56,232 bases of DNA from an uncultured Prevotellaceae bacterium (lineage in GTDB: Bacteria; Bacteroidota; Bacteroidia; Bacteroidales; Bacteroidaceae), in NCBI GenBank assembly GCA_900318685.1, contig ONLL01000022.1:1-56232 (forward strand). Reading direction: 5' to 3'. The position numbers and the translations under genes were made by a program. Shown piece by piece: positions 7,027 through 21,068 of the stretch. How positions within the stretch are numbered: position 1 is the first letter of the stretch; each line of letters opens with the position of its first letter. The notes below the pieces were generated by a model. The model made no database searches. It was not told where the DNA came from and worked only from the letters and a program-made list of their open reading frames with translations.

Positions 7027-7254
7027 ATGGAAACGAGAACCATCCACGTACAAGTCAGCGTACCACATTCGTACCGCATCGACCTGCTAGAGCAACAGCT
7101 TACGACTTATGCCGAACAGCTTATTGCTCAGGCCACGGCTTCGAAGAATAGAAAGCGTCGTCACCGTCACGAGGCCCTCTGCGGCATTTTCAATTCAGAC
7201 GCTTCTGAGGAGGAACTCGTCGAGGACTACCTGAAGGATAAGTACCAGCTATAG
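7027..7254 (+). CDS. Small orphan antitoxin-like protein (75 aa)
   Basis: A 75-aa protein with a basic centre (NRKRRHRHEALCG, about 51-63) and an acidic tail ending in DYLKDKYQL. The arrangement of an N-terminal beta strand (IHVQVSVP), a helix, the HEALCGIF segment and a C-terminal Y-L-K-D-K-Y reminds me of small Bacteroidales antitoxin-like proteins that normally accompany a toxin. No toxin gene is next to it: the fucosidase is upstream and repeats are downstream. It has its own promoter. It is the last gene before the accessory region. The gene is well supported by promoter and codon use; function is unknown and the antitoxin resemblance is from memory only. Confidence 0.6.
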   Translation: METRTIHVQVSVPHSYRIDLLEQQLTTYAEQLIAQATASKNRKRRHRHEALCGIFNSDASEEELVEDYLKDKYQL

Positions 7255-7306
7255 AAAGGAGAAAACGGTCATTCTCACGTCCTGTATTTGCACCCATAGA
7301 TATCTC

Positions 7307-7395
7307 AAGCCGTTCAAGAGCCCCTCTTAAGCCGTTCAAGAGCCCCTCTTAAGCCGTTCAAGAGCCCCTTCTGAGCCGTTCAAGAGGGGCTCTTG
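7307..7395. repeat. 22-bp tandem repeat, 3-4 copies, ending in an inverted copy
   Basis: Two identical 22-bp units (7307-7328, 7329-7350) with core GCCGTTCAAGAGCCCC are followed by a third with an altered end (7351-7372) and a fourth partial unit from 7373. In the fourth, GTTCAAG is followed by AGGGGCTCTTG, the reverse complement of CAAGAGCCCCT. The array can therefore fold into a strong hairpin between 7360 and 7395. It lies 50 bp after the 75-aa gene. Confidence 0.85.
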
Positions 7396-7412
7396 AACCG
7401 TTCAAATGCCCT

Positions 7413-7621
7413 TGTTACAGATTGGGCAGGGAAAAAATGTGTAGCACATCTGTAACAATATGTGTAACAAGTGAAAGATATTGCTGTTCAGTGAGTTACG
7501 TGCTTTTTGTATCTTCTGTTACACTTGTACACTTTAAAATGTAGAAATTGAAGGTCTATAAAAAAATAAAAGTAATGAGTAGCGGGAGTAGAAAAGATGT
7601 GTAACATGTGTATCTGTAACA
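7413..7621. repeat. Six iteron-like copies of [C/G]TGTAACA beside the primase-helicase gene
   Basis: Forward copies at 7450-7457, 7462-7469, 7599-7606 and 7614-7621; reverse copies at 7413-7420 and 7517-7524. The segment between is AT-rich, including a run of A/T around 7535-7575. No gene is seen in 7255-7687, so the repeats stand alone. Position immediately downstream of a Toprim/SF3 protein suggests a replication origin or binding-site cluster. That role is inference; the copies themselves are directly visible. Confidence 0.5.
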
Positions 7622-7630
7622 GCGCAGAAA

Positions 7631-7669
7631 AAGCCCGTTCCGGTCTTTTGGCAGGATCGAAACGGGCTT
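7631..7669 (-). terminator. Terminator of the primase-helicase gene
   Basis: Arms AAGCCCGTT (7631-7639) and AACGGGCTT (7661-7669). On the minus strand the hairpin follows the stop at 7688 by about 18 nt and is followed by TTTTTCTG. Confidence 0.75.
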
Positions 7670-7687
7670 AGAGAGGTGAAATGACGA

Positions 7688-10504
7688 TCAGAATGGCTTG
7701 TCGTCAGTCCATGACTCGGCAGCGTTTTCCTCGAATGGCAGACTGGGCTCAGCAGGTTCCGTCTTGGCAACTTCGGCAGCAGCTTTAGTTGACTGTACAT
7801 AGTAGTAGGCCTTCTGCTGATTGTTCTCGTCGCGCTTGATCCATCGTTCGCCGTCGGCCTGCTTGTTGGTGATGGCGGCAGGGTTCAGACAATAGATGTG
7901 TTCTGAGAACTGGCAGTAGTCGGTGAGGTGCTGCGTCATCTTCTTAGGTGACCAACCGAACTTCGTCTCCTGGTTGAAGTCGGCCAGTACCAGCTCAGCT
8001 TTCAGGTCGCAATCGAGATGGCCGCTGTCCTCGGCAAAGTAGTCGTCAGCCCACTGCTTGAAGTCCTTACCCACGGCAGCCATCTGTTCGCGACGCTCTA
8101 TGCGACCCATCGGTGGAAGAATGCGGCGGCAGCCAGGAGTGAGCGACAGGTAGAAGCGTACACACTGCAACATGAAAGCCAGGTCGAGCTGCCAGTCGTG
8201 CTCGCTGTACTCTGTGCCCATCAGGTTCTGCCCGAAGTCGTCGCGGATGGAGCGTGACTCTCGGTAGTCGTTCTGAGGGGTCTTCACGTGGTAGTAGTCA
8301 GAGAAGGGCTGCGGCCAGATGCGTCCCTCGGTTGAAGGGTCATGACGGGGCAAGGTGAAATTACTTGCCAGCACGAACTTCGGACTCAGCGAGAAGGGAA
8401 TGACATACGAGTGGCGGTTCTTCTCCTCCACGCGGAGGTCGTTGGTGATCTTGCCGTAGAAGTAGTTGTAGTCGAACTTGCGAGGGCACTCATCGACGAA
8501 CACCAGGTCGGTGTCGGGTGTCACGCCGTCGAAGATAAAGCGGTTGTCCTTCGTAGGTGTCGAGCCTGCATCGATAGTAAAGGTTTTTGCCATCTTGGCT
8601 ATAGCATTGACATAGAATGACTTACCGCTGCGTCCGTTGCACTCATCTACGCTCTCAGCCATTGTGCTGTCAAGGCAGATGGTGGCCCAGGCTTCGGATT
8701 CTGACTTGTGGCTGGTGAGCAGATAGCCCAGGTTTGCCAGACGGCTTGCAAGGCACAGATGTTGGTCGAAAAACTCTTCCGGGGTTAAGTCCAGTCCGCC
8801 TTCGTCAGTCTTACGCCAGTAGGTCCTGCAAGTGTTGACATTGAACAGGAGAAAGTTGCTCAGAGTCATGTTCTCAGTCAGGTTGACAACGTAGTGACCA
8901 TCCTCGTCGGTAGTGACGGTGAACATGTCGGGCATCGGGCGGTAGTCATGCTGTATGATGCTGTCGTGCCAGACATAGTGACCCTCGGATTCCGAATAAC
9001 GATGGACGGCCACTTTTTCGGCCGTCACCTCTACCCAACAATTGCGGAAGTAGAAACGCTGCGTTGTTGCGGTAGCACGGCTGAAGTCCAGATCGTCGCG
9101 TTCGCGCAGTGTGCTGGCGTTGTTGGTAGGCAGGTCGCGACTGCGCAGTACCTTGTCCTGCAGTGCCTTTGGTAGCCCCTGCTGTTCCATCCAACTTTTC
9201 AGAAAGTTGACAATTGTCTTTGCCGTGATGTGCTGCACGATGATGCCGTCGATACGGATGTAGACAGGCTCGTGGCGTGTCTCGTCCTTCAGTGTGTAGA
9301 AGCCGTTCAATTCCAAGAAGTAATTGAGCGAGGTGAGGCTCAGCGTGTACTCCTTCTGACCCTGCTTGTTCTCTTGCACAGACCAGAACTTCGCCTTGAT
9401 GGCACGGTTCACGAGCGTGTCCATCGCCTTTTTCGACGGGTTCAGACAACTGTAGTCACGCAAGTCCTTGCACTGTCGGCCACGGTTGTCGTGCAGGCCG
9501 CCCATGTCGTTCTGCGAAAGCCATGCCGTGTGGATGCCGAGGTGTGTGAGGGCAAGTCGCTGACCGGCCTTGATGCCCGTTGCGTCGATGTCGGGAATGT
9601 TCACCAGCCATTTGGTGTACTTCATCAGGAGGTTGTAGTCGTAGTCAGACAGTCCCTTCGTCTCACTGTCAAGCCACACAGCCAGATAGCCGTAACTCAA
9701 GGCCGTGACAGCATCGCTGCCGCCGCTGACGAGTAGCAAGACGGACAACTTCTCTTCACCTTGCTCCTGAAAGCGTTGGCGCACGGCTTGCAGGCCGTAG
9801 ATGTAGTTCTGCGGTTTTTTCCCGCTAATGAGGAAACGGTGAGCCTTGTCAGGGTTACGCGGTTCGTAGACCTTGTAGAAGACCTGCGGCTGACCCTGTT
9901 CATCGACATAGTCGCACTGCTGAGCAAAGATAGGGTACGTAGGCGTGGGCTTGCGTACGATGACCTTATCACCGTAGGTGATGGCCACCTCGCTGACACC
10001 TTTCCACCCGTAGGTTTCCAGATGCTCTGCCTTGATGTTAGCTCCCCAACAGCTAAGGTCTATACCTCCCAGACCCTCGAAGAGCGTGATGCGTGGCATC
10101 GCCCCGATCTCGTCGGGACGTGCAGCGCGTTGCTCAATGTCGGGTTTGTTGATGCTGCCGGTAAGCAACTCCTGTACCCCATAGCGCTCGGCCAGTTCCT
10201 CCAGTCCTAGACGGAACCTGTCCTGACCATAGCCTCGATCCCATAGGTAGAGGTCGATGGGCGAAAAAAGTCCACCGCCTTCACCCATGCCGAAGTCCTT
10301 CACGTGCCAATAAGGCCGTTTCTGGTCGGGCGGATAGAGGTGAGCTGACGGCGTGCGCTCGTCAGGTCGAAGGCGAAAAGCCTTCTTGTGGTTAATCACT
10401 GCATCATCGACTGCTGGCAGCAAATCGGTGATGATGTCGAGTCCCGAATGGGTTGCGTCGTAGACGCGTTGTAAGAGATCGTCTCTGTACATGTTACCAG
10501 ACAT
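7688..10504 (-). CDS. Toprim plus SF3-type primase-helicase of a mobile element
   Basis: A 938-aa protein combining priming and unwinding domains, as in P4-alpha and plasmid/phage replication proteins. The N-terminus (about 43-90: RLRPDERTPSAHL...WHVKDFG) resembles the DnaG CHC2 zinc-finger fold but has lost the zinc cysteines. A Toprim-like part follows, with SGGSDAV (260-266) and DID (305-307). The ATPase has Walker A GRSGKS (624-629), Walker B LVFVDE (667-672) and a sensor Asn in LASNF (712-716). It forms its own transcription unit: a terminator separates it from the upstream partner gene, and another terminator and iteron-like repeats lie downstream. Met5 at 10492 is an alternative start. 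No integrase or relaxase is visible, so whether it still serves a mobile element or has been adopted by the island is unknown. Confidence 0.75.
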   Translation of the reverse strand: MSGNMYRDDLLQRVYDATHSGLDIITDLLPAVDDAVINHKKAFRLRPDERTPSAHLYPPDQKRPYWHVKDFGMGEGGGLFSPIDLYLWDRGYGQDRFRLGLEELAERYGVQELLTGSINKPDIEQRAARPDEIGAMPRITLFEGLGGIDLSCWGANIKAEHLETYGWKGVSEVAITYGDKVIVRKPTPTYPIFAQQCDYVDEQGQPQVFYKVYEPRNPDKAHRFLISGKKPQNYIYGLQAVRQRFQEQGEEKLSVLLLVSGGSDAVTALSYGYLAVWLDSETKGLSDYDYNLLMKYTKWLVNIPDIDATGIKAGQRLALTHLGIHTAWLSQNDMGGLHDNRGRQCKDLRDYSCLNPSKKAMDTLVNRAIKAKFWSVQENKQGQKEYTLSLTSLNYFLELNGFYTLKDETRHEPVYIRIDGIIVQHITAKTIVNFLKSWMEQQGLPKALQDKVLRSRDLPTNNASTLRERDDLDFSRATATTQRFYFRNCWVEVTAEKVAVHRYSESEGHYVWHDSIIQHDYRPMPDMFTVTTDEDGHYVVNLTENMTLSNFLLFNVNTCRTYWRKTDEGGLDLTPEEFFDQHLCLASRLANLGYLLTSHKSESEAWATICLDSTMAESVDECNGRSGKSFYVNAIAKMAKTFTIDAGSTPTKDNRFIFDGVTPDTDLVFVDECPRKFDYNYFYGKITNDLRVEEKNRHSYVIPFSLSPKFVLASNFTLPRHDPSTEGRIWPQPFSDYYHVKTPQNDYRESRSIRDDFGQNLMGTEYSEHDWQLDLAFMLQCVRFYLSLTPGCRRILPPMGRIERREQMAAVGKDFKQWADDYFAEDSGHLDCDLKAELVLADFNQETKFGWSPKKMTQHLTDYCQFSEHIYCLNPAAITNKQADGERWIKRDENNQQKAYYYVQSTKAAAEVAKTEPAEPSLPFEENAAESWTDDKPF

Positions 10505-10509
10505 CCCGG

Positions 10510-10567
10510 GGGATATTATCCCGTTCCGTCTGGTTTCAAAAAACTATGTCAAAATTTACGAAACCAG
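10510..10567. promoter_or_regulatory. Palindromes upstream of the primase-helicase gene
   Basis: A perfect 13-bp palindrome GGGATATTATCCC (10510-10522) begins 6 bp from the start codon. An 8-bp inverted repeat CTGGTTTC (10530-10537) and GAAACCAG (10560-10567) lies behind it. Such symmetry in a promoter region suggests an operator, possibly autoregulatory. I could not identify a convincing -7 box. Confidence 0.45.
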
Positions 10568-10650
10568 TTTGTACTACCCACTTTAAAAACGGCCATTAGC
10601 CAAACAAAGCCTGTTTCACAAAGTCTTTTCGCTCAAATAAAAAAAGAAAA

Positions 10651-10684
10651 AAAGTTACTGAGTTGTAGATTACTCAGTAACTTT
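10651..10684 (-). terminator. Strong terminator ending the Argonaute/partner operon
   Basis: A 13-bp perfect stem, AAAGTTACTGAGT (10651-10663) with ACTCAGTAACTTT (10672-10684), and an 8-nt loop. On the minus strand it starts 20 nt past the stop at 10704 and runs into a long T-rich tract (10637-10650). It separates the operon from the primase-helicase gene. Confidence 0.9.
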
Positions 10685-10703
10685 AGATGGAGAATAGGTG
10701 ATG

Positions 10704-11708
10704 TTAGCAGAGCGTATTAACTATATCATTGATGACAGATTCATCACCTTTTCGCCATGATTCGCTGCTGATATTAGGCATAGCGTCACCTCTATATTTG
10801 AAACGACAAGAAACGACATACCAATGGGTGTAGTTTGGTTCAGCAGGATAGACTGCAAGTACATTCTTTTCCTTTAATTTAACTATGATAAATTTTAGTA
10901 TGTGTTTTTTGCCTATCCATTCTACCGTTGCTGCAGTAGGGCGACCACTAAATACAGCAAGCACATGTCTAAGGTCTGTATTTTCTGGTATCTGCCCATA
11001 CTTTATGAGTTTCGCATGGAACTCTGTCAAGCATCTGTTGCGTTCTTGCTCGTCGCTATTGATATAATTGAATGAACATGTTGTTATCTTGCAAGGTTTC
11101 TTCTCTCCTTTAGATTCTTGACTGATTGACTCTACATAGACTGTCGGGTCGTTAATCCATCCCACTATTGAAGCATAAAATGAGGCAACGTCCTGCAAGT
11201 CGGATAGGTCGCATACATACTGGTATCTCTGTTGCATCTCCATCCAACAATGAACAAGCGAAGCTATAACATAGTGGAGAATAACGAAACATTCCTTCTC
11301 TTGGCGTTTGTTATTGAAATCTGTGAGACTTTCAGTTGTTACGTTCAAGCTTTTACAGTGGTTTACGGCATCTGCTATGAGCGTGGTTACTGCTTCTCTC
11401 GTCAGTTTCAGTAGATAGGCGGTCGTATATTCGCTCTGGTCTGAATCGATAGTGCTGAAAGCCTGTCTCAAATGATCTGCCACAGCATAGTCAGTCAATC
11501 GGCAATAGTAGCGCACTCGATAGGTGAACAGAATATGGCGCTCATATTTGAGCTGATATTTCAAGTCAGTTGGCATGGGAATCTCCGGCATTGTCGAAAG
11601 CTTCTCGCGATAGCTGCAGTCAGGACATTTGTTGGAATCTGTCCAAGGCTGCAAATGCTTGTTCAGAATGGCGTCTATAACATCTAATTTAAAAGTAATG
11701 ATGCTCAT
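10704..11708 (-). CDS. Unknown 334-aa protein encoded in operon with Argonaute
   Basis: The start is placed at MSIITF (11708), 13 nt after the Argonaute stop; a longer reading from 11771 would overlap the Argonaute gene by 50 nt. Visible features are a lone CPDC pair near residue 28, a mostly helical middle rich in Cys, Tyr and His, and a C-terminal part (about 215-334) with FSGRP, WIGKKHILKFIIVKLKE and a Trp/Tyr-rich end. The C-terminal pattern vaguely recalls uncharacterised Bacteroidetes mobile-element proteins (RteC or DUF6043 type), but I cannot assign a family. No nuclease, TIR, SIR2 or membrane motif is apparent. Sharing a transcript and a terminator with the Argonaute argues for a functional partner, perhaps effector or loading factor; this is inference. 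Confidence 0.7.
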   Translation of the reverse strand: MSIITFKLDVIDAILNKHLQPWTDSNKCPDCSYREKLSTMPEIPMPTDLKYQLKYERHILFTYRVRYYCRLTDYAVADHLRQAFSTIDSDQSEYTTAYLLKLTREAVTTLIADAVNHCKSLNVTTESLTDFNNKRQEKECFVILHYVIASLVHCWMEMQQRYQYVCDLSDLQDVASFYASIVGWINDPTVYVESISQESKGEKKPCKITTCSFNYINSDEQERNRCLTEFHAKLIKYGQIPENTDLRHVLAVFSGRPTAATVEWIGKKHILKFIIVKLKEKNVLAVYPAEPNYTHWYVVSCRFKYRGDAMPNISSESWRKGDESVINDIVNTLC

Positions 11709-11721
11709 GGGGCAGAATATG

Positions 11722-13986
11722 TTAGAGGAACCATAAACATCCCTTCTCGGGATAGACCGTAGGATTATCAAAGTGAGGCATTATCTCTGCAATCATTTCG
11801 GGGTATTTTATTGTGACAGGCAACCCCTGCTGACGTACAGAACGCCAATAGATGCGACTGAATTGATATACTTGCCCTATAAGTAGTTCTACGGTGGCAG
11901 TGTCGATATCAGTACCGTTGCCTCCGAAACAACAGATAGTCAACTTTACGGGGAATGGGAACCCGTCTGTAACACGGAAACGGTCGTCGCCATAGCGGGT
12001 GTTGTTACATAGCAGATAGCGATAGCCTTCGCGCACTCTTCCCAGATTTGCCCATGTACCACTCATCGGCATAAGGCTTTGATGAGTACCATTTCGGTCG
12101 CTATAAGTACTCTGGCTATCAAAGAGCACCAAGTCTTCTGATTCGGTCTTGTTAATGCTCACCACATAGACGGGAATGTCAAGGTTTAGCGAGGCAAGCA
12201 TCTCCAGAATTTGAGTAGCCTCCTTCCTCATGCTCAACTTTTTGTAATAGTGTATGATGAGCCGTTCTGGTTTATTGTTGATAGAGGTGAAATGTATGAT
12301 GTTTAATCTGATTTTACCTACGAGTTCGCGGAACTGCGAAGTGCGGAAGTAGTCATAGTCGCAGAGTACACCTGTATTGTCAAACGAGAAGGCAGCGCCA
12401 ATAAATTGCTCTCCAGCAGTCTTAAAGGCACCGATACCGATGACCAGTTCCTTGCGTGTAGTCTCATCGAGTAGCCATGGTGATCCGCCTGTCTTGGCAC
12501 ATATAGCTATGCCCATATTTTGCAGGGTATAGATGAAGTTCTTGTAACGGCAGTCCTTTTCGCGATTGATGGCTGCTATCATGTTGCGTGCATCAATACA
12601 TTGTGTCATGATGCCACGTTTGAGGAACAACTCCTTTATCTTATAGTAGCATTCACTGGCAATTATACCGCTTGCATACTTATGGATGGGAGATAAATAA
12701 ATGCCCACATATCTAATGTTACTATCAAGACTGTTATACGCTTGTTGCATCATGGCGTTCTGTATTTCCGGCAAAGGGTTTTGCGAGTCCTTGAAGCATA
12801 TATGAAGGGATTGATGTGCATAGCCAACCGTCGTACCGATATATCTCTCTAGTCGCTTACGCTTCGCTTCGTCCTGATCTTGATAATTACCGTTTCGGAA
12901 GTAGCCTAGTAGTTTTGCAGCATAGTCTTTGTCATCTTCGTGATAAATAGCAATTAGACGAACCTCTATATACGGGCATTTACGCGCAGGCCCTGCATTG
13001 ATTCCATCCTGTGGACGATCATTCTTGAACTGGTTTCCAAAGCGTAGCATCCGCTTAGTAGCATCCATTTGACCTAATTGGCTGTCTGCCACAGGGGTAA
13101 AATTTTGAGACAAGTCAACAAAGATCTTTTTGATGTCAGGATCATTAGTCAAGTATTTTTCTTTGAAATATGTTATCTTCTCAAGATACTTTACGTATTT
13201 GCTGCTCCAGTCGCGCCCTCCCGTTGGACTGTCGATGCCTAGCACGTGTTTCATCTCGCGATTCAAGACGGGCAAGGTGTCGGAAGCAACATAGGGAATG
13301 TTCTTCTCGTGAAGTGTTTGCAGGCTTACTATATGGCGATCATAGGGTTTCCCATCAGAGTGTCGTTTGCGAATCATCACTTTGTTAACCATTGACGCCG
13401 TGAGATTCTTGGATTGATCTGTGAAGGGGTCTGTGACGTCACCATCAAGTTTATTGAGTGGCAGGCCCAAAATGCTGGCTGGGCGATCACTGGCAATGAG
13501 CAGATAGGGACTTCCGTTGGCCGCATTAAAACGTACTTTTAGCGTGAAGCGATCCAACGTCCACAACTTAACGTCCCTTCCCAGGTATTTTAGCATTTGC
13601 ACAGGTGCTGACTGATTGAACTCCCACACCTGCAGGTCACGGGTAATGCCCGACTGTGTGAACATCAGGTTCTCGTGCTTGGAGAGCAGTCTCTTCAGCC
13701 TTTGATTGTAATACCGCTTCACGTAGTCTTCGTTGTCTGGGTTGTTGAAATCCACTGCAACAGGTGTGAAATCCTTACATTGCTTTTCGTAGGTTGTATA
13801 TAGCTTTAGTTCCCCGCCAATACCCACAAATAATGATAAGGCTTTAACCTCTTCTGGAACGAGTGTTATTGACTTGAGCATATCAGTTTTCTTCTCCTCG
13901 TCATCTTTTGTCGAGAAGTAGCAAGTGACAGGCTCCGTAGGGTAACGGAAGGAAAGGCTATTAAGAAATAGCTGGGTGTTGTCCAT
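11722..13986 (-). CDS. Long prokaryotic Argonaute (PIWI protein), predicted nuclease-inactive
   Basis: A 754-aa nucleic-acid-guided defence protein. Recognisable parts in order are an N/PAZ-like region (about 1-310), the L2 linker with RFGN...DGINAGP (315-333), MID with a guide 5'-end binding YYKIKE (447-452) and TQCI, and PIWI from about 485. PIWI landmarks are NMGIAICAKTGGSPWLL (490-506), GIGAF (517-521), IIHYYKK (577-583), INKTES (611-616) and QVYQFSRIYWRS (705-716). The final segment is LPVTIKYPEM...LWFL. The first catalytic Asp position (normally GxD) is Gly519, and the HRDG-type Asp position is Tyr581, so target cleavage looks lost, as in effector-coupled pAgos. It is visibly more AT-rich than the flanking core genes. 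It is first gene of a two-gene unit, divergent from a restriction-modification operon. Family call is firm; inactivity is inferred from motif reading by eye. Confidence 0.88.
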   Translation of the reverse strand: MDNTQLFLNSLSFRYPTEPVTCYFSTKDDEEKKTDMLKSITLVPEEVKALSLFVGIGGELKLYTTYEKQCKDFTPVAVDFNNPDNEDYVKRYYNQRLKRLLSKHENLMFTQSGITRDLQVWEFNQSAPVQMLKYLGRDVKLWTLDRFTLKVRFNAANGSPYLLIASDRPASILGLPLNKLDGDVTDPFTDQSKNLTASMVNKVMIRKRHSDGKPYDRHIVSLQTLHEKNIPYVASDTLPVLNREMKHVLGIDSPTGGRDWSSKYVKYLEKITYFKEKYLTNDPDIKKIFVDLSQNFTPVADSQLGQMDATKRMLRFGNQFKNDRPQDGINAGPARKCPYIEVRLIAIYHEDDKDYAAKLLGYFRNGNYQDQDEAKRKRLERYIGTTVGYAHQSLHICFKDSQNPLPEIQNAMMQQAYNSLDSNIRYVGIYLSPIHKYASGIIASECYYKIKELFLKRGIMTQCIDARNMIAAINREKDCRYKNFIYTLQNMGIAICAKTGGSPWLLDETTRKELVIGIGAFKTAGEQFIGAAFSFDNTGVLCDYDYFRTSQFRELVGKIRLNIIHFTSINNKPERLIIHYYKKLSMRKEATQILEMLASLNLDIPVYVVSINKTESEDLVLFDSQSTYSDRNGTHQSLMPMSGTWANLGRVREGYRYLLCNNTRYGDDRFRVTDGFPFPVKLTICCFGGNGTDIDTATVELLIGQVYQFSRIYWRSVRQQGLPVTIKYPEMIAEIMPHFDNPTVYPEKGCLWFL

Positions 13987-14044
13987 AATAAAAAGTGAAT
14001 TAATTTATTTTCAGTACATCAAACACCATGCCAATATATAGAAT

Positions 14045-14070
14045 GTCAGCATTTTCACTTGGATGCTGAC
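14045..14070. promoter_or_regulatory. Inverted repeat between the Argonaute operon and the RM leader
   Basis: GTCAGCAT (14045-14052) and ATGCTGAC (14063-14070) are separated by 10 nt. It lies 58 bp upstream of the Argonaute start and 62 bp before the divergent -7 box, placing it as a shared operator candidate. No poly-T follows, which argues against a terminator. Confidence 0.5.
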
Positions 14071-14131
14071 AAAATTGCACAAGTTTTTTTATTTTTTATA
14101 CAAATCTCGCTTTATTATGAAGATTATTTTG

Positions 14132-14139
14132 TACCTTTG
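14132..14139 (+). promoter_or_regulatory. -7 box for the structured RNA and RM leader
   Basis: TACCTTTG followed by C matches TAnnTTTG. Transcription would be expected to begin about 7 nt later, near 14146, exactly at the 5' arm of the structured RNA described next. Confidence 0.7.
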
Positions 14140-14145
14140 CCCCTT

Positions 14146-14236
14146 GAACACTGGCTGATCGTCCTAATGGGACAGAATGCTGTCAAAGCTCTCTTTGTAT
14201 TCATGGCTTCAGCGGAAGCCCGCCGGTGTTTCTTTT
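14146..14236 (+). ncRNA. Candidate ~90-nt structured small RNA upstream of the RM operon
   Basis: Closing stem GAACACTGGC (14146-14155) pairs with GCCGGTGTTTC (14222-14232) with one bulge. Inside are three hairpins: GTCC/GGAC (14161-14164, 14170-14173), GAAT...CAAAG/CTTTG...ATTC (14175-14202) and GGCTTC/GAAGCC with an AGCG loop (14205-14220). The 3' end runs into TTTCTTTT (14229-14236). The promoter box ends 6 nt before the first paired base, so the RNA would start at its own closing stem. It could be a free small RNA or an attenuator for the downstream genes. An overlapping 61-codon reading frame (14059-14244) looks non-coding. I do not recognise an Rfam family. Confidence 0.55.
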
Positions 14237-14277
14237 GTGGGTAGATAGATAGTTGTATCTATATTCTATAGAGGTCT

Positions 14278-14468
14278 ACGCAAAAATTCCGACCAGAATA
14301 GTAACAAGGCCTCGTGGAATCGGGATACACCTTGCATAAAGGTGTGCCCGTTCCATATATGTCCTTGTTACGGGCCTCTTTGGTCGGATGCCTTGCGTGG
14401 AGCATATATTAGGGACGTGGTACACTCTTTATATCTGCATTTTATCGTTTCACGCTAAAATCCGACCA
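14278..14468 (+). promoter_or_regulatory. Structured 5' leader of the methyltransferase operon with three motif copies
   Basis: Copy 1 of an ~18-bp motif (ACGC...CCGACCA) is at 14278-14295, copy 2 is inverted at 14381-14398, and copy 3 is at 14452-14468, ending 1 nt before the ATG. Copies 1 and 2 close a long stem-loop that contains GTAACAAGG/CCTTGTTAC (14301-14309, 14363-14371) and an inner hairpin GGAA-CGGG-ACACCTT against AAGGTGT-CCCG-TTCC (14316-14354). Copy 2 could instead pair with copy 3 and cover the translation start. A switch between the two pairings, or binding of a regulator to the motif, would control the operon. Confidence 0.55.
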
Positions 14469-14469
14469 A

Positions 14470-15156
14470 ATGACAGTAACGAACGATGAACAAGAAAAGC
14501 AGGTAGTATCGAAGCAGCGTGTAGCTGACCATGGCGAGGTGTATACCGCCAAGCGGGAGGTGAATGCGATGCTTGATCTGGTGAAGGAAGAGACGGAGCG
14601 TATTGACTCCCGATTCCTGGAGCCAGCCTGTGGTAATGGGAATTTCCTCGTGGAAATCCTTAATAGGAAAATGGAGGCGGTATGGAAACAGTTTTCCAAA
14701 AACCGCTATGAATACGACCGAGCATCAGCACAGGCCGTCAGTTCGATGTATGGCGTAGAATTGTTGCCCGATAATGTTGAAATATGCCGGAACCGCTTGA
14801 TGGATCAATATCTCGAAACCTACCGTCAGCATCAATCTGCTGATGCATCTCCTGAGTTAGAACGATGCATCCGTTTCCTTTTGAAGAAGAACATTCTTTG
14901 TGGCGATGCCCTGACTATGTTGCAACAGGACGGGAGTTCCATCACCTTTTGCGAATGGACATTCATAGGATTGAATGGCAAAGTGAAGCGGCGTGACTTC
15001 GAACTGGCAGAACTGCTGAGAAATGTGGAGTACGACAAGCCAAAGGCTGGCGAGGAGGGCCTCCTATTTGCAGATACAGGTGAGCCAACATTTGTGCATC
15101 TGCCTAAACGGGAATATCCCTTGACTGACTACCTAAAACTGCCCGACTATGAGTAA
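14470..15156 (+). CDS. DNA adenine methyltransferase subunit, motif I protein (228 aa)
   Basis: The protein carries the SAM-binding motif I of gamma-type N6-adenine methyltransferases, FLEPACGNGNFL (49-60), preceded by the region HGEVYTAKREVNAMLDLV. It lacks an NPPY catalytic motif, so alone it probably cannot methylate. The next gene overlaps it by 8 nt and supplies NPPY but has an aberrant motif I. The ATG at 14470 directly follows copy 3 of the leader motif. It is expected to be part of a restriction-modification system with the two following genes. A truncated or phage-type methyltransferase is the alternative. Confidence 0.75.
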   Translation: MTVTNDEQEKQVVSKQRVADHGEVYTAKREVNAMLDLVKEETERIDSRFLEPACGNGNFLVEILNRKMEAVWKQFSKNRYEYDRASAQAVSSMYGVELLPDNVEICRNRLMDQYLETYRQHQSADASPELERCIRFLLKKNILCGDALTMLQQDGSSITFCEWTFIGLNGKVKRRDFELAELLRNVEYDKPKAGEEGLLFADTGEPTFVHLPKREYPLTDYLKLPDYE

Positions 15157-16657
15157 GTTGAACTATAATCCTGATGTGTTGTCGTGCTTGGCTAACCTGA
15201 GTAACGACGAAGTGTTTACCCCGCCACAATTGGCGAACCAGATGCTGGATATGTTGCCGCAAGAGCTGTTTCGGAGTCCCGACACGAAATTCCTCGACCC
15301 TTGCACGAAGAGCGGAGTCTTTCTCAGAGAGATTGCGAGAAGGTTGATAGTCGGTTTGGCTGATAAGATTCCTGATCTTCAGGAGCGTATCGACCACATC
15401 ATGCATGACCAGATCTATGGCATCGCCATTACTCGGTTGACTTCGTTGATGAGTCGCCGTAGCCTCTATTGCTCAAAGGATGCCAGTTGCAAATACAGCC
15501 TCTCGCATTTCGATGATGCAGATGGCAATATTCACTTTGACGAGATTCTGCATGCGTGGCAAGGAGGCAAGTGTATCTATTGCGGAGCCTCGCAAGAAGT
15601 CTACGACAGAGGCGAAGAACTCGAATCACATGCTTATGAATTTATTCATACAGATAACCCAAAAGATTTTTATAACAATATGACTTTCGATGTAATTATT
15701 GGCAACCCGCCGTATCAGTTAGGAGATGGAGGAAATAATGCAAGTGCTACTCCAATATACAACTTATTTGTAACGCAGGCACGCAAACTTAATCCATTAT
15801 TTCTTATAATGATTATTCCTTCAAGATGGTATTGTGGGGGTAGAGGTCTTGATGAATTTCGTAACATGATGCTCGAAGATAAAAACCTCCAATACATTTA
15901 TGATTACAAGAGAAGTGCTGATTGTTTTCCTGGAATAAGAAATGGAGGTGGAATATGTTACTTCTTAAGAAATAGTCATTACCATTCTGATTATGTTAAT
16001 ATCGCTAATCATGTGGAAGGTGAGGAGGCAAAATGGATACAAAGGAAAAAGATAGATTTTAACCTCAATTTCTTTATAAGAGACAATAAGGTTTATGAAA
16101 TTGTAAAGAAGGTGAAGAAAAAACAGGAATCATCATTGGCTAACATCGTTTATTCTCAAAAACCTTATGGCTTTAGAACCAATTTTACAGATTTTGATGA
16201 GAAAGGAAAAGTTAAGCTTTACACAAAGAAATCAAAAAGAGGTTATGAATATATATCAGAAGATCAAATTACCAAAAATATAGAAGACCTCGATAAATGG
16301 AAACTTGTTACATCTAGAAGTACATCTGTGCCAGAGGAAGATAACGGACAAGTATTAAGAATGTCTCAGACTTTTATTGTTGAGCCGCAAGCTGTAGTTA
16401 CTGAATCATATATTGTTATTTGTGTTTCGGAAAATAAGGTGATAGTTGAGAATTGTTATTCATATCTAAAAACAAAATTCTTTAGACTCCTTTGCCAGAT
16501 AACAATAGTATCACCTGATGTGTCGCAAAGAACATTTACCCTTGTCCCACTCCAAGACTTCAGCAAGCCTTGGACGGATGAAGAGCTCTATAAGAAATAT
16601 AATCTGACTGAAGAAGAAATCGCATTTATTGAGTCGATGATACGACCAATGGAATAA
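15149..16657 (+). CDS. Eco57I-like adenine-specific DNA methyltransferase (502 aa)
   Basis: Adenine methyltransferase with catalytic NPPY (186-189, in VIIGNPPYQ). Its motif I has the variant sequence DPCTKSG (50-56) in place of DPACGTG. A zinc-knuckle-like CIYCGA (142-147) followed by YDRGEELESHAYEFIH separates the two. Beyond NPPY lie the conserved IIPSRW and FPGIRNGGGICYFL stretches; the remainder (about 300-502) is probably target recognition. Base composition drops sharply from about 15640 to 16550 (strongly AT-rich), suggesting that the target-recognition part has a different origin. It overlaps the upstream gene by 8 nt and precedes the helicase-nuclease by 17 nt, a tight operon. Confidence 0.85.
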   Translation: MSKLNYNPDVLSCLANLSNDEVFTPPQLANQMLDMLPQELFRSPDTKFLDPCTKSGVFLREIARRLIVGLADKIPDLQERIDHIMHDQIYGIAITRLTSLMSRRSLYCSKDASCKYSLSHFDDADGNIHFDEILHAWQGGKCIYCGASQEVYDRGEELESHAYEFIHTDNPKDFYNNMTFDVIIGNPPYQLGDGGNNASATPIYNLFVTQARKLNPLFLIMIIPSRWYCGGRGLDEFRNMMLEDKNLQYIYDYKRSADCFPGIRNGGGICYFLRNSHYHSDYVNIANHVEGEEAKWIQRKKIDFNLNFFIRDNKVYEIVKKVKKKQESSLANIVYSQKPYGFRTNFTDFDEKGKVKLYTKKSKRGYEYISEDQITKNIEDLDKWKLVTSRSTSVPEEDNGQVLRMSQTFIVEPQAVVTESYIVICVSENKVIVENCYSYLKTKFFRLLCQITIVSPDVSQRTFTLVPLQDFSKPWTDEELYKKYNLTEEEIAFIESMIRPME

Positions 16658-16674
16658 TAAAACACTGAAAGTCT

Positions 16675-19191
16675 ATGGCTACCAATAATAACTATTTTCC
16701 TAAGAAATCGGACTCAGCTCCGATGATCTATGCTTACGAAGACAAGTATGATCCTAACTTGAAAGGTATCCTGAAAGTGGGCTATACCACGATTGGTGTG
16801 CAAGAGCGTGTGCGCCAGCAGTATAATATTGTGCGGCCAGGCGAACCACCATACCGTATCTTGGTAGAAGAATCAGCCATGCGACAGGATGGTACGACAT
16901 TTATGGATCATGATGTGCATCGCACCTTGGTAAAGATGGGATGCCAAAACATAGAAGGTGAATGGTATCGCTGTACGCCTCAACAGGTTAGGTCTGCCAT
17001 CGTGGCCGTCAGAGAAAGGGTAGATGTGGCATGGAATCGCGACAAAACCTTTGGCATGCGCCCAGAACAGAAGAAAGCGGTTGACAAGACGGCAGCATAC
17101 TTTGATAGTTACAAGTTGGAAAATGGACGTGTTCCTCACTTCCTTTGGAACTGTAAGATGCGCTTTGGCAAAACCTTTACTACCTATCAGCTGGCCAAGC
17201 GTATGGGATGGACGCGAGTGCTGGTTCTCACCTTCAAGCCTGCCGTGGCTCAAGCATGGGAAGAGGATCTGATGACGCACGTGGATTTCAAGGACTGGCA
17301 ATTTATTGCTCGTAATCCAGAGGCTACGATTGACTATCAGTTCGCGCATGCCGACCAGTCGAAGCCAATGGTGGTATTCGGCTCATTTCAGGACTTCCTT
17401 GGGAAGAATACGGCCAACGGCGGTATGAAACTGAAACACGAGTGGGCTCGGGAATTCAATTGGGACTGTATTGTGCTCGATGAATATCACTATGGCGCAT
17501 GGCGTGAGAATGCAAAAGAACTGATTGGTGTCAGCGAGGACTTAGGCAGCGAGATTGAGAATCCCGATTACTTCGACGAGGATCTAATTCCTATCACGTC
17601 GAATCATTATCTCTATCTATCGGGCACTCCTTTCCGTGCTATTGCCTCGGGAGAGTTTATCGAGGAACAGATCTACAACTGGACGTATTCTGATGAACAG
17701 CGTTCCAAAGAGGATTGGGGCGACAAACCTGATAATCCTTATGCATCGCTGCCCAAGATGGTGTTGCTGACCTATCAACTGCCTGCTGAAATATCGAGAG
17801 TGGCTGAGGAAGGAGAGTTTGATGAATTCGATTTGAACTCGTTCTTTGAGGCAGAGGGCAAGGGAGAGAATGCTGTATTCAAACATCATGACGAGGTACA
17901 GAAGTGGCTCGATATGCTGCGAGGACAATATTTGCCAACCTCTATTAACGACTTGAAGGCTGGCAATCGGAAACCGCCTTTGCCCTTCCTCAATGGCGAC
18001 CTCTATACTAACATGAACCATACTTTGTGGTTTTTGCCTAATGTGGCATCGTGTTTTGCCATGAGGAATTTGCTTACTGAACTTCAGAATACCTTCTATC
18101 ACGACTATCGGGTCATCGTATGTGCGGGCACTCGGGCTGGCATCGGACAGCAGGCATTGCCTCCTGTTGAGAAGGCTATGTCGCACCCCGACCCGCTACA
18201 TTGTAAGACCATCACGCTGACCTGCGGTAAACTGACAACTGGCGTTACCGTGCGTCCTTGGACGGGTATCTTCATGCTGCGCGACACTACGTCGCCAGAG
18301 ACTTACTTCCAGTCGGCCTTCCGCGTGCAGTCGCCTTGGACCATCACCAATAGCGACGGGTTGCATCCGAATCGGGTGGAGATATTGAAGCAGTTGTGCT
18401 ATGTGTTTGACTTCTCTCCTAACAGGGCGTTAAGAAAGGTGGCCGACTATTCTTGTCAGTTGAATGTTGAAGAGGGTAATCCGGAGAAGTGCGTGGATGA
18501 CTTCATCAAGTTCCTGCCTGTGCTTTGTTATGAAAATGGAGTCATGAAAGCACTTTCAGCAAGCGATGTACTCGACATGGCCATGAACAATACATCGGCC
18601 ACGCTATTGGCTCGCCGTTGGGAGAGTGCCTTGCTGGTGAATGTAGATAACTTTACCCTCCAGCGCCTTATGAACAACCCCGAGGCGATGGCTGCCCTCA
18701 TGAAGATAGAGGGATTCCGCTCGTTGAATCAGGATATCGAGACTATTATCAATAAGAGTGATGCCATCAAGAAAATCCGCAAGGAACACGAAGAAGGATT
18801 ATCGGCACGTGAGAAGAGAGAGCTAACAGAAGAGGAAAAGGAAATCAAGAGCAAGCGACGCCAAATACAAGAAAAGCTGATGAAGTTCGCTACGCGCATA
18901 CCTATATTTATGTATCTGACGGACTATCGTGAGTATTCTCTGAAAGACGTTATCCTGCAACTGGAACCAAAATTGTTCGAGCGTGTAACAGGATTAACCA
19001 AACAAGACTTTGCTCTTTTGGTCAGTCTGAATGTATTCAACGAGGCTCTGATGAACGATGCTGTTTATAAATTTAAGCGATATGAGGACTCCAGCCTTTC
19101 CTATACGGGCATCGATCGCCATGAAGGAGAGAAGTTGGTTGGTGGTTATAGTACTGTCATCTCAGTAGAAGAGTATCAGTATAAGGTCTAG
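16675..19191 (+). CDS. Restriction subunit: GIY-YIG-like nuclease fused to SF2 helicase (838 aa)
   Basis: Probable DNA-cleaving and translocating subunit of the RM system. The N-terminal ~110 aa (MIYAYE at 17-22, LKVGYT at 33-38, QERVRQQY at 43-50, GEWYRC at 95-100) match the T5orf172/Mug113 branch of GIY-YIG nucleases. The SF2 helicase follows, with Walker A KMRFGKT (161-167), DEYH box (269-272), YLSGTPFR (motif III region) and TYFQSAFRVQSPW (motif VI). A helical, lysine-rich stretch (about 695-740) precedes the C-terminal domain. The gene order methyltransferase, methyltransferase, helicase-nuclease is typical of ATP-dependent RM loci in Bacteroidetes. Alternative: a purely defensive translocase without cleavage if the GIY-YIG part is inactive. 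Confidence 0.82.
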   Translation: MATNNNYFPKKSDSAPMIYAYEDKYDPNLKGILKVGYTTIGVQERVRQQYNIVRPGEPPYRILVEESAMRQDGTTFMDHDVHRTLVKMGCQNIEGEWYRCTPQQVRSAIVAVRERVDVAWNRDKTFGMRPEQKKAVDKTAAYFDSYKLENGRVPHFLWNCKMRFGKTFTTYQLAKRMGWTRVLVLTFKPAVAQAWEEDLMTHVDFKDWQFIARNPEATIDYQFAHADQSKPMVVFGSFQDFLGKNTANGGMKLKHEWAREFNWDCIVLDEYHYGAWRENAKELIGVSEDLGSEIENPDYFDEDLIPITSNHYLYLSGTPFRAIASGEFIEEQIYNWTYSDEQRSKEDWGDKPDNPYASLPKMVLLTYQLPAEISRVAEEGEFDEFDLNSFFEAEGKGENAVFKHHDEVQKWLDMLRGQYLPTSINDLKAGNRKPPLPFLNGDLYTNMNHTLWFLPNVASCFAMRNLLTELQNTFYHDYRVIVCAGTRAGIGQQALPPVEKAMSHPDPLHCKTITLTCGKLTTGVTVRPWTGIFMLRDTTSPETYFQSAFRVQSPWTITNSDGLHPNRVEILKQLCYVFDFSPNRALRKVADYSCQLNVEEGNPEKCVDDFIKFLPVLCYENGVMKALSASDVLDMAMNNTSATLLARRWESALLVNVDNFTLQRLMNNPEAMAALMKIEGFRSLNQDIETIINKSDAIKKIRKEHEEGLSAREKRELTEEEKEIKSKRRQIQEKLMKFATRIPIFMYLTDYREYSLKDVILQLEPKLFERVTGLTKQDFALLVSLNVFNEALMNDAVYKFKRYEDSSLSYTGIDRHEGEKLVGGYSTVISVEEYQYKV

Positions 19192-19201
19192 AGATCCGGA
19201 A

Positions 19202-19225
19202 CACAGCAGGGCAGGTTCTGCTGTG
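19202..19225 (+). terminator. Hairpin after the RM operon
   Basis: CACAGCAG (19202-19209) and CTGCTGTG (19218-19225) pair with an 8-nt loop, 10 nt after the helicase stop. No T-run follows, so it may act as an mRNA end-stabiliser rather than an intrinsic terminator. Confidence 0.4.
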
Positions 19226-19292
19226 CGCTGTGCCCATCGCGTTGAAGGCATGATGTTTTATGTGATTTTCTTTGAAAAAAATTGCCAAAATA

Positions 19293-19324
19293 TTTGGTAG
19301 TTTCAGGAAATTTTTGTACCTTTG
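19293..19324 (+). promoter_or_regulatory. Promoter of the HU-related gene, both boxes visible
   Basis: A -33 box TTTG (19293-19296) and a -7 box TACCTTTG (19317-19324) are 20 bp apart, the best-formed Bacteroidetes promoter in the window. Confidence 0.75.
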
Positions 19325-19328
19325 TATC

Positions 19329-19382
19329 GTAAATCAAGCGTGATTTACTAGGGGAAGCGGCCACTCCGAACAGGCTGGCCGC
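19329..19382 (+). promoter_or_regulatory. Double-hairpin leader of the HU-related gene
   Basis: GTAAATCA/TGATTTAC (19329-19348, AGCG loop) is followed by GCGGCCA/TGGCCGC (19357-19382). Transcription from the promoter above would start at the base of the first hairpin, giving a structured 5' UTR of about 85 nt that could stabilise the message or regulate translation. Confidence 0.5.
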
Positions 19383-19418
19383 AGTGTGAGTCTAATACCA
19401 TAAAAAACACAACAAAGT

Positions 19419-20003
19419 ATGGCTACAAACTCAATTGTTCTGCCTATCGATATTCGTAAGAATCGACAGGCATTGTCAAAGGTCTTCGGACACTACTTTC
19501 CTGTGGTGCACAACTCCGGAGCCTTGTCGACCGTCGGTCTGGCCAAGCACATGGCTGACCACGGCAGTATTGTCACCGAGGAGGTGCTGCGCCTGGTGCT
19601 GGGGCAGCTCTCGCGCTGCATTCCTGAGCTGGTGGGGCAGGGCATCCCTGTGGTGCTCGACGGGCTGGGCACGTTCTATGCCACTGCCGAGTCGGTGCCC
19701 GGTGGTGCTGAGTCGGTGCAGCAGGCCTCGGAGATGGGCGCTGCCAACCTGGTGAAGGGCATCCACCTGCGCTTCAAGCCCACCGATGTTGACCTTCGTG
19801 CTCTGACCTCGCGTGCCTACAAGCGTGAGTGTTCGCTGCAGCTGGACAACGTCATCGAGCTGACTAACGTCACCGAGCAGGTGGACGGTCAGGAGAAGGT
19901 GACGCGTCGTCTGCAGAAGCTGACTCCCATCGCCGACTGGCTCTATCAGGACCAGCATGGTGATGATGGTGGTGACGGCGGCGACGATGAGCCACGTCCG
20001 TAA
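19419..20003 (+). CDS. HU-related (DNABII) DNA-binding protein, long Bacteroidetes type
   Basis: A 194-aa nucleoid-associated protein of the histone-like HU family as found in Bacteroidetes. The HU fold is visible as a helical N-terminus (about 15-80, including HMADHGSIVTEEVLRLVL) and the GIPVVLDGLGTFYA beta segment (75-88). This is followed by an extended arm region (GIHLRFKPTDVDLR) and a C-terminal extension that ends in a Gly/Asp-rich acidic tail (HGDDGGDGGDDEPRP). Likely bends DNA without strong sequence specificity. It has its own promoter and structured leader. It is not co-transcribed with the RM operon. Confidence 0.88.
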   Translation: MATNSIVLPIDIRKNRQALSKVFGHYFPVVHNSGALSTVGLAKHMADHGSIVTEEVLRLVLGQLSRCIPELVGQGIPVVLDGLGTFYATAESVPGGAESVQQASEMGAANLVKGIHLRFKPTDVDLRALTSRAYKRECSLQLDNVIELTNVTEQVDGQEKVTRRLQKLTPIADWLYQDQHGDDGGDGGDDEPRP

Positions 20004-20135: not shown

Positions 20136-21068
20136 CTATGATTGCGCAAGGAGGTAGCGTTCGGCCTCGATGGCGGCCTGGCAGCCGGTGCCGGCAGCGG
20201 TGATGGCCTGACGATAGACGGGATCGGCACAGTCGCCGGCAACGAAGATGCCGGGGAGCTTGGTGCGCGGGGTGCCGTCGATCTTCTTCAGGTAGCCCAC
20301 CTCATCGACATCGAGCCAGGGACGGAAGATGTCGGTGTTGGGCTTGTGGCCGATGGCGAGGAAGAAACCGTCGATCTGGATGTCGACGAGCTGCTCGTCG
20401 GGCTCACCACGGCGGCGCACGAGATGGGCTCCCTCGACGCCTTCTTCACCGAAGAGACCGATGGTGTTGTGCTCGAAGAGGATCTCGATGTTCTCGCGCT
20501 CCATGACACGTTGCTGCATCACCTTGGAGGCACGGAGGAAGGGCTTGCGCACGATGAGATAGACCTTCTTGGCAAGTCCGCTGAGGTAGAGGGCATCCTC
20601 GCAGGCGGTGTCGCCGCCGCCCACGACGGCCACGGTCTTCTTGCGATAGAAGAACCCGTCGCAGGTGGCACAGGCTGAGACGCCCATGCCGTTGTACTTC
20701 TGCTCGTCGGGCAGTCCGAGGTACTTGGCCGATGCTCCTGTGGCGATGATGACGGTGTCGGCTTCAATCACCTGGCCGGCATCATCTTTTACGCGGTAGG
20801 GCGGGGCAGAGAAGTCGACCTCGACAATCTCTCCGTCGCGGATATCGGCACCGAAGCGCTCGGCCTGCTGACGGAGGTCGAGCATCATCTGATTGCCGTC
20901 GACGCCCTCAGGATAGCCGGGGAAGTTCTCCACCTCAGTGGTCTGGGTGAGCTGTCCGCCGGGCTGCAGGCCGCAGTACTCGATGGGTTGGAGGTTGGCA
21001 CGGCCGGCATAGATGGCAGCGGTATAGCCTGCAGGTCCGCTGCCGATGATCAGGCATTTTGTCTTCAT
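20136..21068 (-). CDS. trxB: Thioredoxin reductase
   Basis: FAD- and NADPH-dependent cytoplasmic enzyme that reduces thioredoxin. It has the N-terminal FAD-binding GSGPAG (9-14), redox-active CATC (C133, C136), the NADPH-binding VGGGDTA (149-155) and the C-terminal FAD motif GIFVAGDCAD. The 310-aa length matches the family. The gene converges on the HU-related gene over a shared terminator. The adjacent glutathione peroxidase upstream on the same strand suggests a small peroxide-defence group; in bacteria lacking glutathione such peroxidases use thioredoxin, which fits the pairing (inference). Confidence 0.96.
   Translation of the reverse strand: MKTKCLIIGSGPAGYTAAIYAGRANLQPIEYCGLQPGGQLTQTTEVENFPGYPEGVDGNQMMLDLRQQAERFGADIRDGEIVEVDFSAPPYRVKDDAGQVIEADTVIIATGASAKYLGLPDEQKYNGMGVSACATCDGFFYRKKTVAVVGGGDTACEDALYLSGLAKKVYLIVRKPFLRASKVMQQRVMERENIEILFEHNTIGLFGEEGVEGAHLVRRRGEPDEQLVDIQIDGFFLAIGHKPNTDIFRPWLDVDEVGYLKKIDGTPRTKLPGIFVAGDCADPVYRQAITAAGTGCQAAIEAERYLLAQS

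Follow-up and report, generated by a model that had tools for sequence, protein, structure and literature searches.

A long-B type Argonaute with a modular downstream partner, probably a defence unit, in uncultured Bacteroidales

Described long-B systems and the Argonaute of this locus

Characterised inactive prokaryotic Argonautes (pAgos) are described as loading 5'-phosphorylated RNA guides, recognising single-stranded DNA targets and thereby activating an associated effector (PMC10620215). In the BPAN, BPAS and BPAM systems presented in that source an inactive long-B Argonaute (Ago) and, behind it, the associated gene make up a short operon, and the partner is an og_15 nuclease, a SIR2 or a TM protein. 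According to Manakova et al. (2024, PMC10954474), the gene immediately downstream of long-B pAgos has one of two products: a Sir2-like protein, or a fusion of a conserved alpha-helical domain with a TM, TIR, HEPN or PD-(D/E)XK domain. The Af1317-type systems of that report consist of an inactive long-B Ago and an immediately downstream partner, whose N-terminal region is helical and whose C-terminal part differs between systems. The locus considered here resembles these systems in gene order, Ago class and partner layout, but sequence searches detected in its partner none of the three BPAN/BPAS/BPAM types and none of the four Af1317-type domains. Two further arrangements are less close. The split long-B pAgo with AfAgo-N (PMC10954474) is also a long-B Ago with an operon partner, but AfAgo-N lies upstream and supplies the missing N-L1-L2 domains, whereas the present Ago has 754 aa and its partner lies downstream. 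The og_54 (VirE-N) long-B subclade (PMC10620215) is alike in having replication-type genes of mobile elements nearby, as at our locus L001, where one gene of BT4734-like_N and one of DUF3987 type follow the partner; og_54, however, lies upstream of Ago, the passages on this subclade name no two-module partner, and the function of those Agos is left open there. A literature search by title and abstract (coverage short on subscription journals, supplements excluded) found no description of the present partner.

The window is the whole stretch of DNA that was analysed, 56,232 nucleotides long, and belongs to a genome of 3.96 Mb with a completeness of 87.5%; the bacterium is Prevotella-like, its named relatives being Prevotellaceae. 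The features of the pair are collected in Table 1.

Table 1. Positions of the Ago, its partner and the following hairpin in the window
Feature	Coordinates	Strand	Basis
Long-B type Argonaute, 754 aa	11722..13986	(-)	ORF and profile matches
Partner protein, 334 aa from ATG	10704..11708	(-)	ORF; ATG 13 nt past the Ago stop
Partner N-domain, residues 1-199, conserved, helical, presumed Ago-docking half	11112..11708	(-)	
Exchangeable C1-type C-domain of the partner (residues 200-334), presumed output half	10707..11111	(-)	
Terminator-like hairpin after the pair, 13 pairs + 8-nt loop + T-tract	10684-10651	(-)	

Almost the entire Ago (residues 4-754) is matched by the PADLOC pAgo model PDLC02385 (E 1.1e-180), and the Pfam Piwi domain scores 39 bits (cut-off 28.9). 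A profile built from 33 Bacteroidales Agos gave 187.5 bits for EcAgo, about 159 for RsAgo and AfAgo, and 53.9 for the long-A KmAgo. By profile score the Ago is nearest the inactive long-B proteins EcAgo, RsAgo and AfAgo, EcAgo of BPAN being the closest solved one; the probable long-B placement comes from these scores, the 37-row Ago tree being free of long-A and named rows.

The original prediction was of a nuclease-dead long Ago, with Gly519 at the first catalytic Asp site of PIWI and Tyr581 at the Asp of the HRDG-type motif. The first site reads GIGAF, its Gly519 is invariant in all nine clade members aligned, and HMMER places it opposite a Gly in both EcAgo and RsAgo; active pAgos lie outside the displayed alignments. 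Residues 575-588 (RLIIHYYKKLSMRK) contain neither Asp nor Glu, which agrees with the second assignment, although in alignments of this composition the exact column of Tyr581 is not fixed. No intact DEDX tetrad was seen in PIWI in these same alignments. As predicted, the active site for DNA cleavage appears to be gone from this Ago. Five residues of the MID guide pocket, Y447, K451, Q462, N490 and K498, are invariant in the nine aligned members, and by eye we tentatively assign them to the YKQTNK motif. This motif of MID is associated with the guide 5'-end (PMC6299218).

The part of the window from 7688 to 20003 looks like an island, with genes for carbohydrate enzymes (up to 6869) on one side and a gene resembling thioredoxin reductase (beginning at 20136) on the other; these labels were given by eye. 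Besides the pair it contains a 938-aa primase/helicase-like gene for which Pfam gave no match, genes of restriction and modification, and a HU-HIG protein, which scored 28.8 bits against a cut-off of 26.2. No tRNA turned up anywhere in the window. Upstream of Ago, in the intergenic region between divergent genes, a long, strongly folding hairpin is present both in the window (14240-14410; z -7.6 on the (+) and -6.6 on the (-) strand) and at L001 (7520-7740; -5.8 and -7.8). These two regions have no clear sequence in common, and the other nine Ago upstream regions examined lack such a hairpin (z -1.5 or weaker). It has no Rfam match and is single-copy in the genome; when 935 windows along one strand were scanned, three other sites of the analysed stretch scored stronger.

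The downstream partner and its two halves

The partner ORF has two possible starts, TTG at 11771 (355 aa) and ATG at 11708 (334 aa). It had been proposed that the two genes form a unit closed by a terminator with a 13-bp stem, and such a hairpin was indeed found; its stem is the longest among five terminator-like sites in the scan, where 2.7 are expected. Relatives of the Ago were registered in 6 of 399 genomes sampled from the family, 33 of 393 from the order and 10 of 398 from the genus. Ten distinct loci make up the close clade: the window, L001, L002, L003, L040-L043, L093 and L115. Presumed duplicates of L001, L002 and L003 (G997, G900 and G857, respectively) were counted once, and the count excludes an Ago fragment at a contig end (G907), a weak fragment (G937), a distant Ago without the partner (G055) and two other distant ones (G1045, G1155).

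At all ten loci a homologue of the partner lies directly downstream of Ago, with a gap of 11-22 nt if internal ATGs are used for the window, L001 and L093; at L115 the contig end cuts the partner off after 209 aa. Such recurrence, in 10 of 10 distinct loci, exceeds chance. The ten partner-bearing Agos form a single clade (support 100/100 in the 37-row tree). The expected co-occurrence of the two genes holds for the close homologues of the Ago in this clade, and more distant Bacteroidales Agos lack the partner. What lies downstream of those varies: inspection by eye suggested SIR2-like, TM-type and membrane-type ORFs, and Pfam identified a GmrSD nuclease and a helicase. None of these ORFs exceeded the inclusion threshold with the N-domain profile (best E 0.013); at L052, L054, L059, L060, L062 and L065 the examined range held no same-strand ORF of at least 100 aa. 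With the profile of the whole partner, 20 of the 399 family genomes gave matches, five of them near full length and all five in Ago carriers, while the other 15, none of which is among the Ago carriers found in the family, matched only from profile position 177 on. Judged by these sequence comparisons, the partner is dedicated to Ago in its clade; because 15 of the 20 matching genomes have the family of its C-half with no Ago found, the expression "new Ago effector" covers only part of it.

As a separate observation, a long-B-like Ago of another branch (L051, 6199-8316) overlaps by 13 nt with a GmrSD-type restriction gene (GmrSD_N + GmrSD_C), a possible further case of Ago-effector pairing.

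Comparison of the partners indicates that their N-half is constant and their C-half is exchanged between close relatives. The N-domain has 12 invariant positions in 10 rows (M1, Y33, F61, R66, Y68, K101, E105, E139, L151, C154, Q159 and S180). In the structure predicted for the partner alone, from 4-row alignments as were the other models, it is a helical bundle with 10-residue mean pLDDT of 67-92 from residue 11 to 180; the C-domain of the window protein was poorly modelled and the whole model has a pTM of 0.57. Between L040 and L043 identity is 72% for Ago and 68% for the N-domain but only 17% for the C-domain, and the C-domain of L043 shares 52% identity with the one in L084, an Ago-free protein. 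The partner of L093 matches the N-domain profile at positions 1-202 and then continues with an unrelated domain, C2. The partner also evolves faster than Ago, and this, together with a C-half common to Ago-free proteins, means that an element gene may make up part of it.

C2 is carried as well by the downstream partners of a distant Ago lineage (L063, L111 and L116). Their N-part is probably related to the N-domain, since the hhalign score of 33.6 was reached by none of 30 shuffled comparisons (maximum 22.3; probability 42%). At L061 a 288-aa protein (7182-8048) is encoded 13 nt downstream of another distant Ago; its start (MTLSVFRDFLFGPLRPL) resembles the starts of these three partners, and its C-terminus is an HTH_17 domain (34.6 bits, cut-off 27). 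An N-terminal motif D-x-L-x-G-x-L-R-P can be seen by eye in L001-L003, L061, L063, L111 and L116; it is weak in the window and was not seen in L040-L043.

The window partner itself has no match in Pfam, PADLOC or NCBIfam, and sequence searches detected no nuclease, SIR2, TIR, HEPN or PD-(D/E)XK signature in it, so that the original description of the protein as unrecognised, with no nuclease, SIR2 or membrane motif, stands, though a nuclease too remote for such searches is conceivable. It had also been suggested that the partner may represent a new effector or accessory class. Most likely, as far as its sequence allows one to judge, it follows the published long-B partner plan in a new version, whose presumed output module is absent from the published list. 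It is not a wholly new class, because a downstream partner with a helical and a variable domain has already been described for long-B pAgos (PMC10954474). A direct comparison of the window N-domain with the TM-type partners L071 and L072 remained at noise level (score 9.6; 29 of 30 shuffles as good).

The C1 module in its mobile-element setting

Proteins that otherwise differ from each other end in a C1 domain (L081-L090 and L094-L104), and one of them shows a weak, sub-threshold HIRAN match in its N-terminal part. Most of these proteins directly precede a module of three genes, X (~160 aa), H (~450 aa) and P, where P is a primase with a CHC2 zinc finger (PF01807, 50.5 bits) and X and H are unknown families. 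X was found at 8 of 11 Ago-free C1 loci and the complete X-H-P set at 7 of 11; of the three loci without X, two keep H alone and one lies on a contig of 3,965 bases. Some C1 proteins follow an unannotated partner gene, which suggests further two-gene units.

The same module accompanies part of the Ago loci. X is present at 7 of the 12 partner-bearing loci examined (L040-L043, L063, L093 and L116; L002 was left out), with the module on the opposite side of Ago at L093, and was not found at the window, L001, L003, L111 and L115. At the 27 Ago loci without this partner neither X nor P was found, and four gave a weaker H match. A search started from X produced 26 loci in 19 of 151 genomes and a C1 protein before X at 10 of the 26; these ten include two Ago partners, and several of the genomes are shared with the partner-profile search.

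Possible functions of the pair

With a probability of roughly 0.58 we consider the pair to be a two-gene long-B pAgo immune unit built from an RNA-guided sensor, a docking N-half and a plug-in output C-half. By analogy with the characterised inactive pAgos, the Ago would take 5'-phosphate small RNA guides and scan invader DNA, the helical N-domain of the partner would bind the Ago and sense target engagement, and the C-domain would execute the response; exchange of the C-domain would then change the output while the sensor stays constant. The pair is probably a defence unit. At hand-picked loci defence-type genes adjoin it: in the window they encode an Eco57I methylase and a T5orf172/ResIII protein, at L003 BREX BrxA, BrxB and BrxC, at L093 AbiD, at L001 an HKD+Snf2 helicase and at L002 a type I methylase, of which the first part is present. 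As to the output, slightly less than half of our expectation goes to a module of mobile-element type that binds DNA or has a regulatory role, and about two fifths to a new toxic effector, the rest being unassigned. An output of the DNA-binding rather than toxic kind is possible because the L061 partner ends in HTH_17; this domain and the primase-module setting favour it, whereas a toxic output is favoured by precedent.

One can assume, tentatively, that the Ago is an RNA-guided recruiter rather than a killer, C1, C2 and HTH_17 being DNA-binding or regulatory modules of mobile elements, and that it tethers, marks or represses DNA, for instance that of replicating invaders or of the element itself. 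The above-threshold HTH_17 end of the L061 partner points in this direction, as do the X gene and CHC2 primase next to most Ago-free C1 proteins and, on a viral contig, a C2 protein ahead of an HTH/excisionase-looking protein and replication-type genes (labels by eye). The only invariant positions of the 16 aligned C1 domains are F, W, L, F and L; no acidic residue, His or Cys is invariant, so that no catalytic-type residue is common to all of them. We nevertheless regard this possibility as rather unlikely, since known long-B partners, as far as they are presented in the sources cited above, are effectors, 8 of 30 shuffles matched the window N-domain as well as that of L061 did, and no kinship was seen between C1 and C2 (25 of 30 shuffles equally good). 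Moreover, the model of C1 from L003 (pTM 0.65, confident only in its core) gave no meaningful fold match and no winged-helix. Should it be true, the output of an Argonaute would be guided recruitment, not killing, with a partner module from the mobile-element toolkit binding or marking DNA, and the same combination of a single docking half with many plug-in halves would be open to unrelated N-terminal sensors at a fixed slot before the primase module.

Just as doubtful in our estimation is a new toxic effector, that is a novel C-terminal toxin freed by target binding of Ago and leading to abortive infection, as in BPAN, BPAS and BPAM. Here the characterised long-B systems offer a precedent in their published descriptions (PMC10620215, PMC10954474), the exchange of C-domains behind a constant half resembles effector swapping, and defence genes adjoin the chosen loci. 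Against it stand the failure to match any nuclease, NADase or HEPN, the aligned C1 domains devoid of invariant acidic, His or Cys residues and the DNA-binding C-terminus of one distant partner (L061).

It is improbable that the partner is mainly a mobile-element gene that happens to follow Ago and forms no joint machine with it. The C1 half does occur without Ago in most of the matching genomes and stands before X at 10 of 26 loci, only two of these proteins being Ago partners. Also, between L041 and L042 the N- and C-domains are 95% and 99% identical against 83% for Ago, and for this reason partner and Ago can recombine apart. However, all five full-length matches place the N-domain beside Ago, the pair persists at the window, L001 and L003, where X was not found, and the short spacing is kept at all ten loci. 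A membrane effector like BPAM or SiAga2 is the least credible of all, and a membrane protein is unlikely on predicted hydropathy: the hydrophobic stretch at residues 140-158 of the window partner (mean 1.56; 1.88 in L002) approaches the weaker of two TM-type controls (1.98), but not the other (2.62), the maximum in L040-L042 is 1.02, and in the model the stretch falls within a helix of the N-domain bundle that is predicted with confidence.

The immune unit with a plug-in output is probably the best description of the pair. Inactive long-B systems described so far act, in the accounts cited, through identified effector types, and the present Bacteroidales clade has a partner without their signatures. 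Its C1 module recurs at one mobile-element slot behind different N-terminal proteins. The naturally swapped output half makes directly testable what an inactive Argonaute switches on, as the partners of the window, L040, L043 and L093 types are natural chimaeras, in which the sensor is the same and the output is changed.
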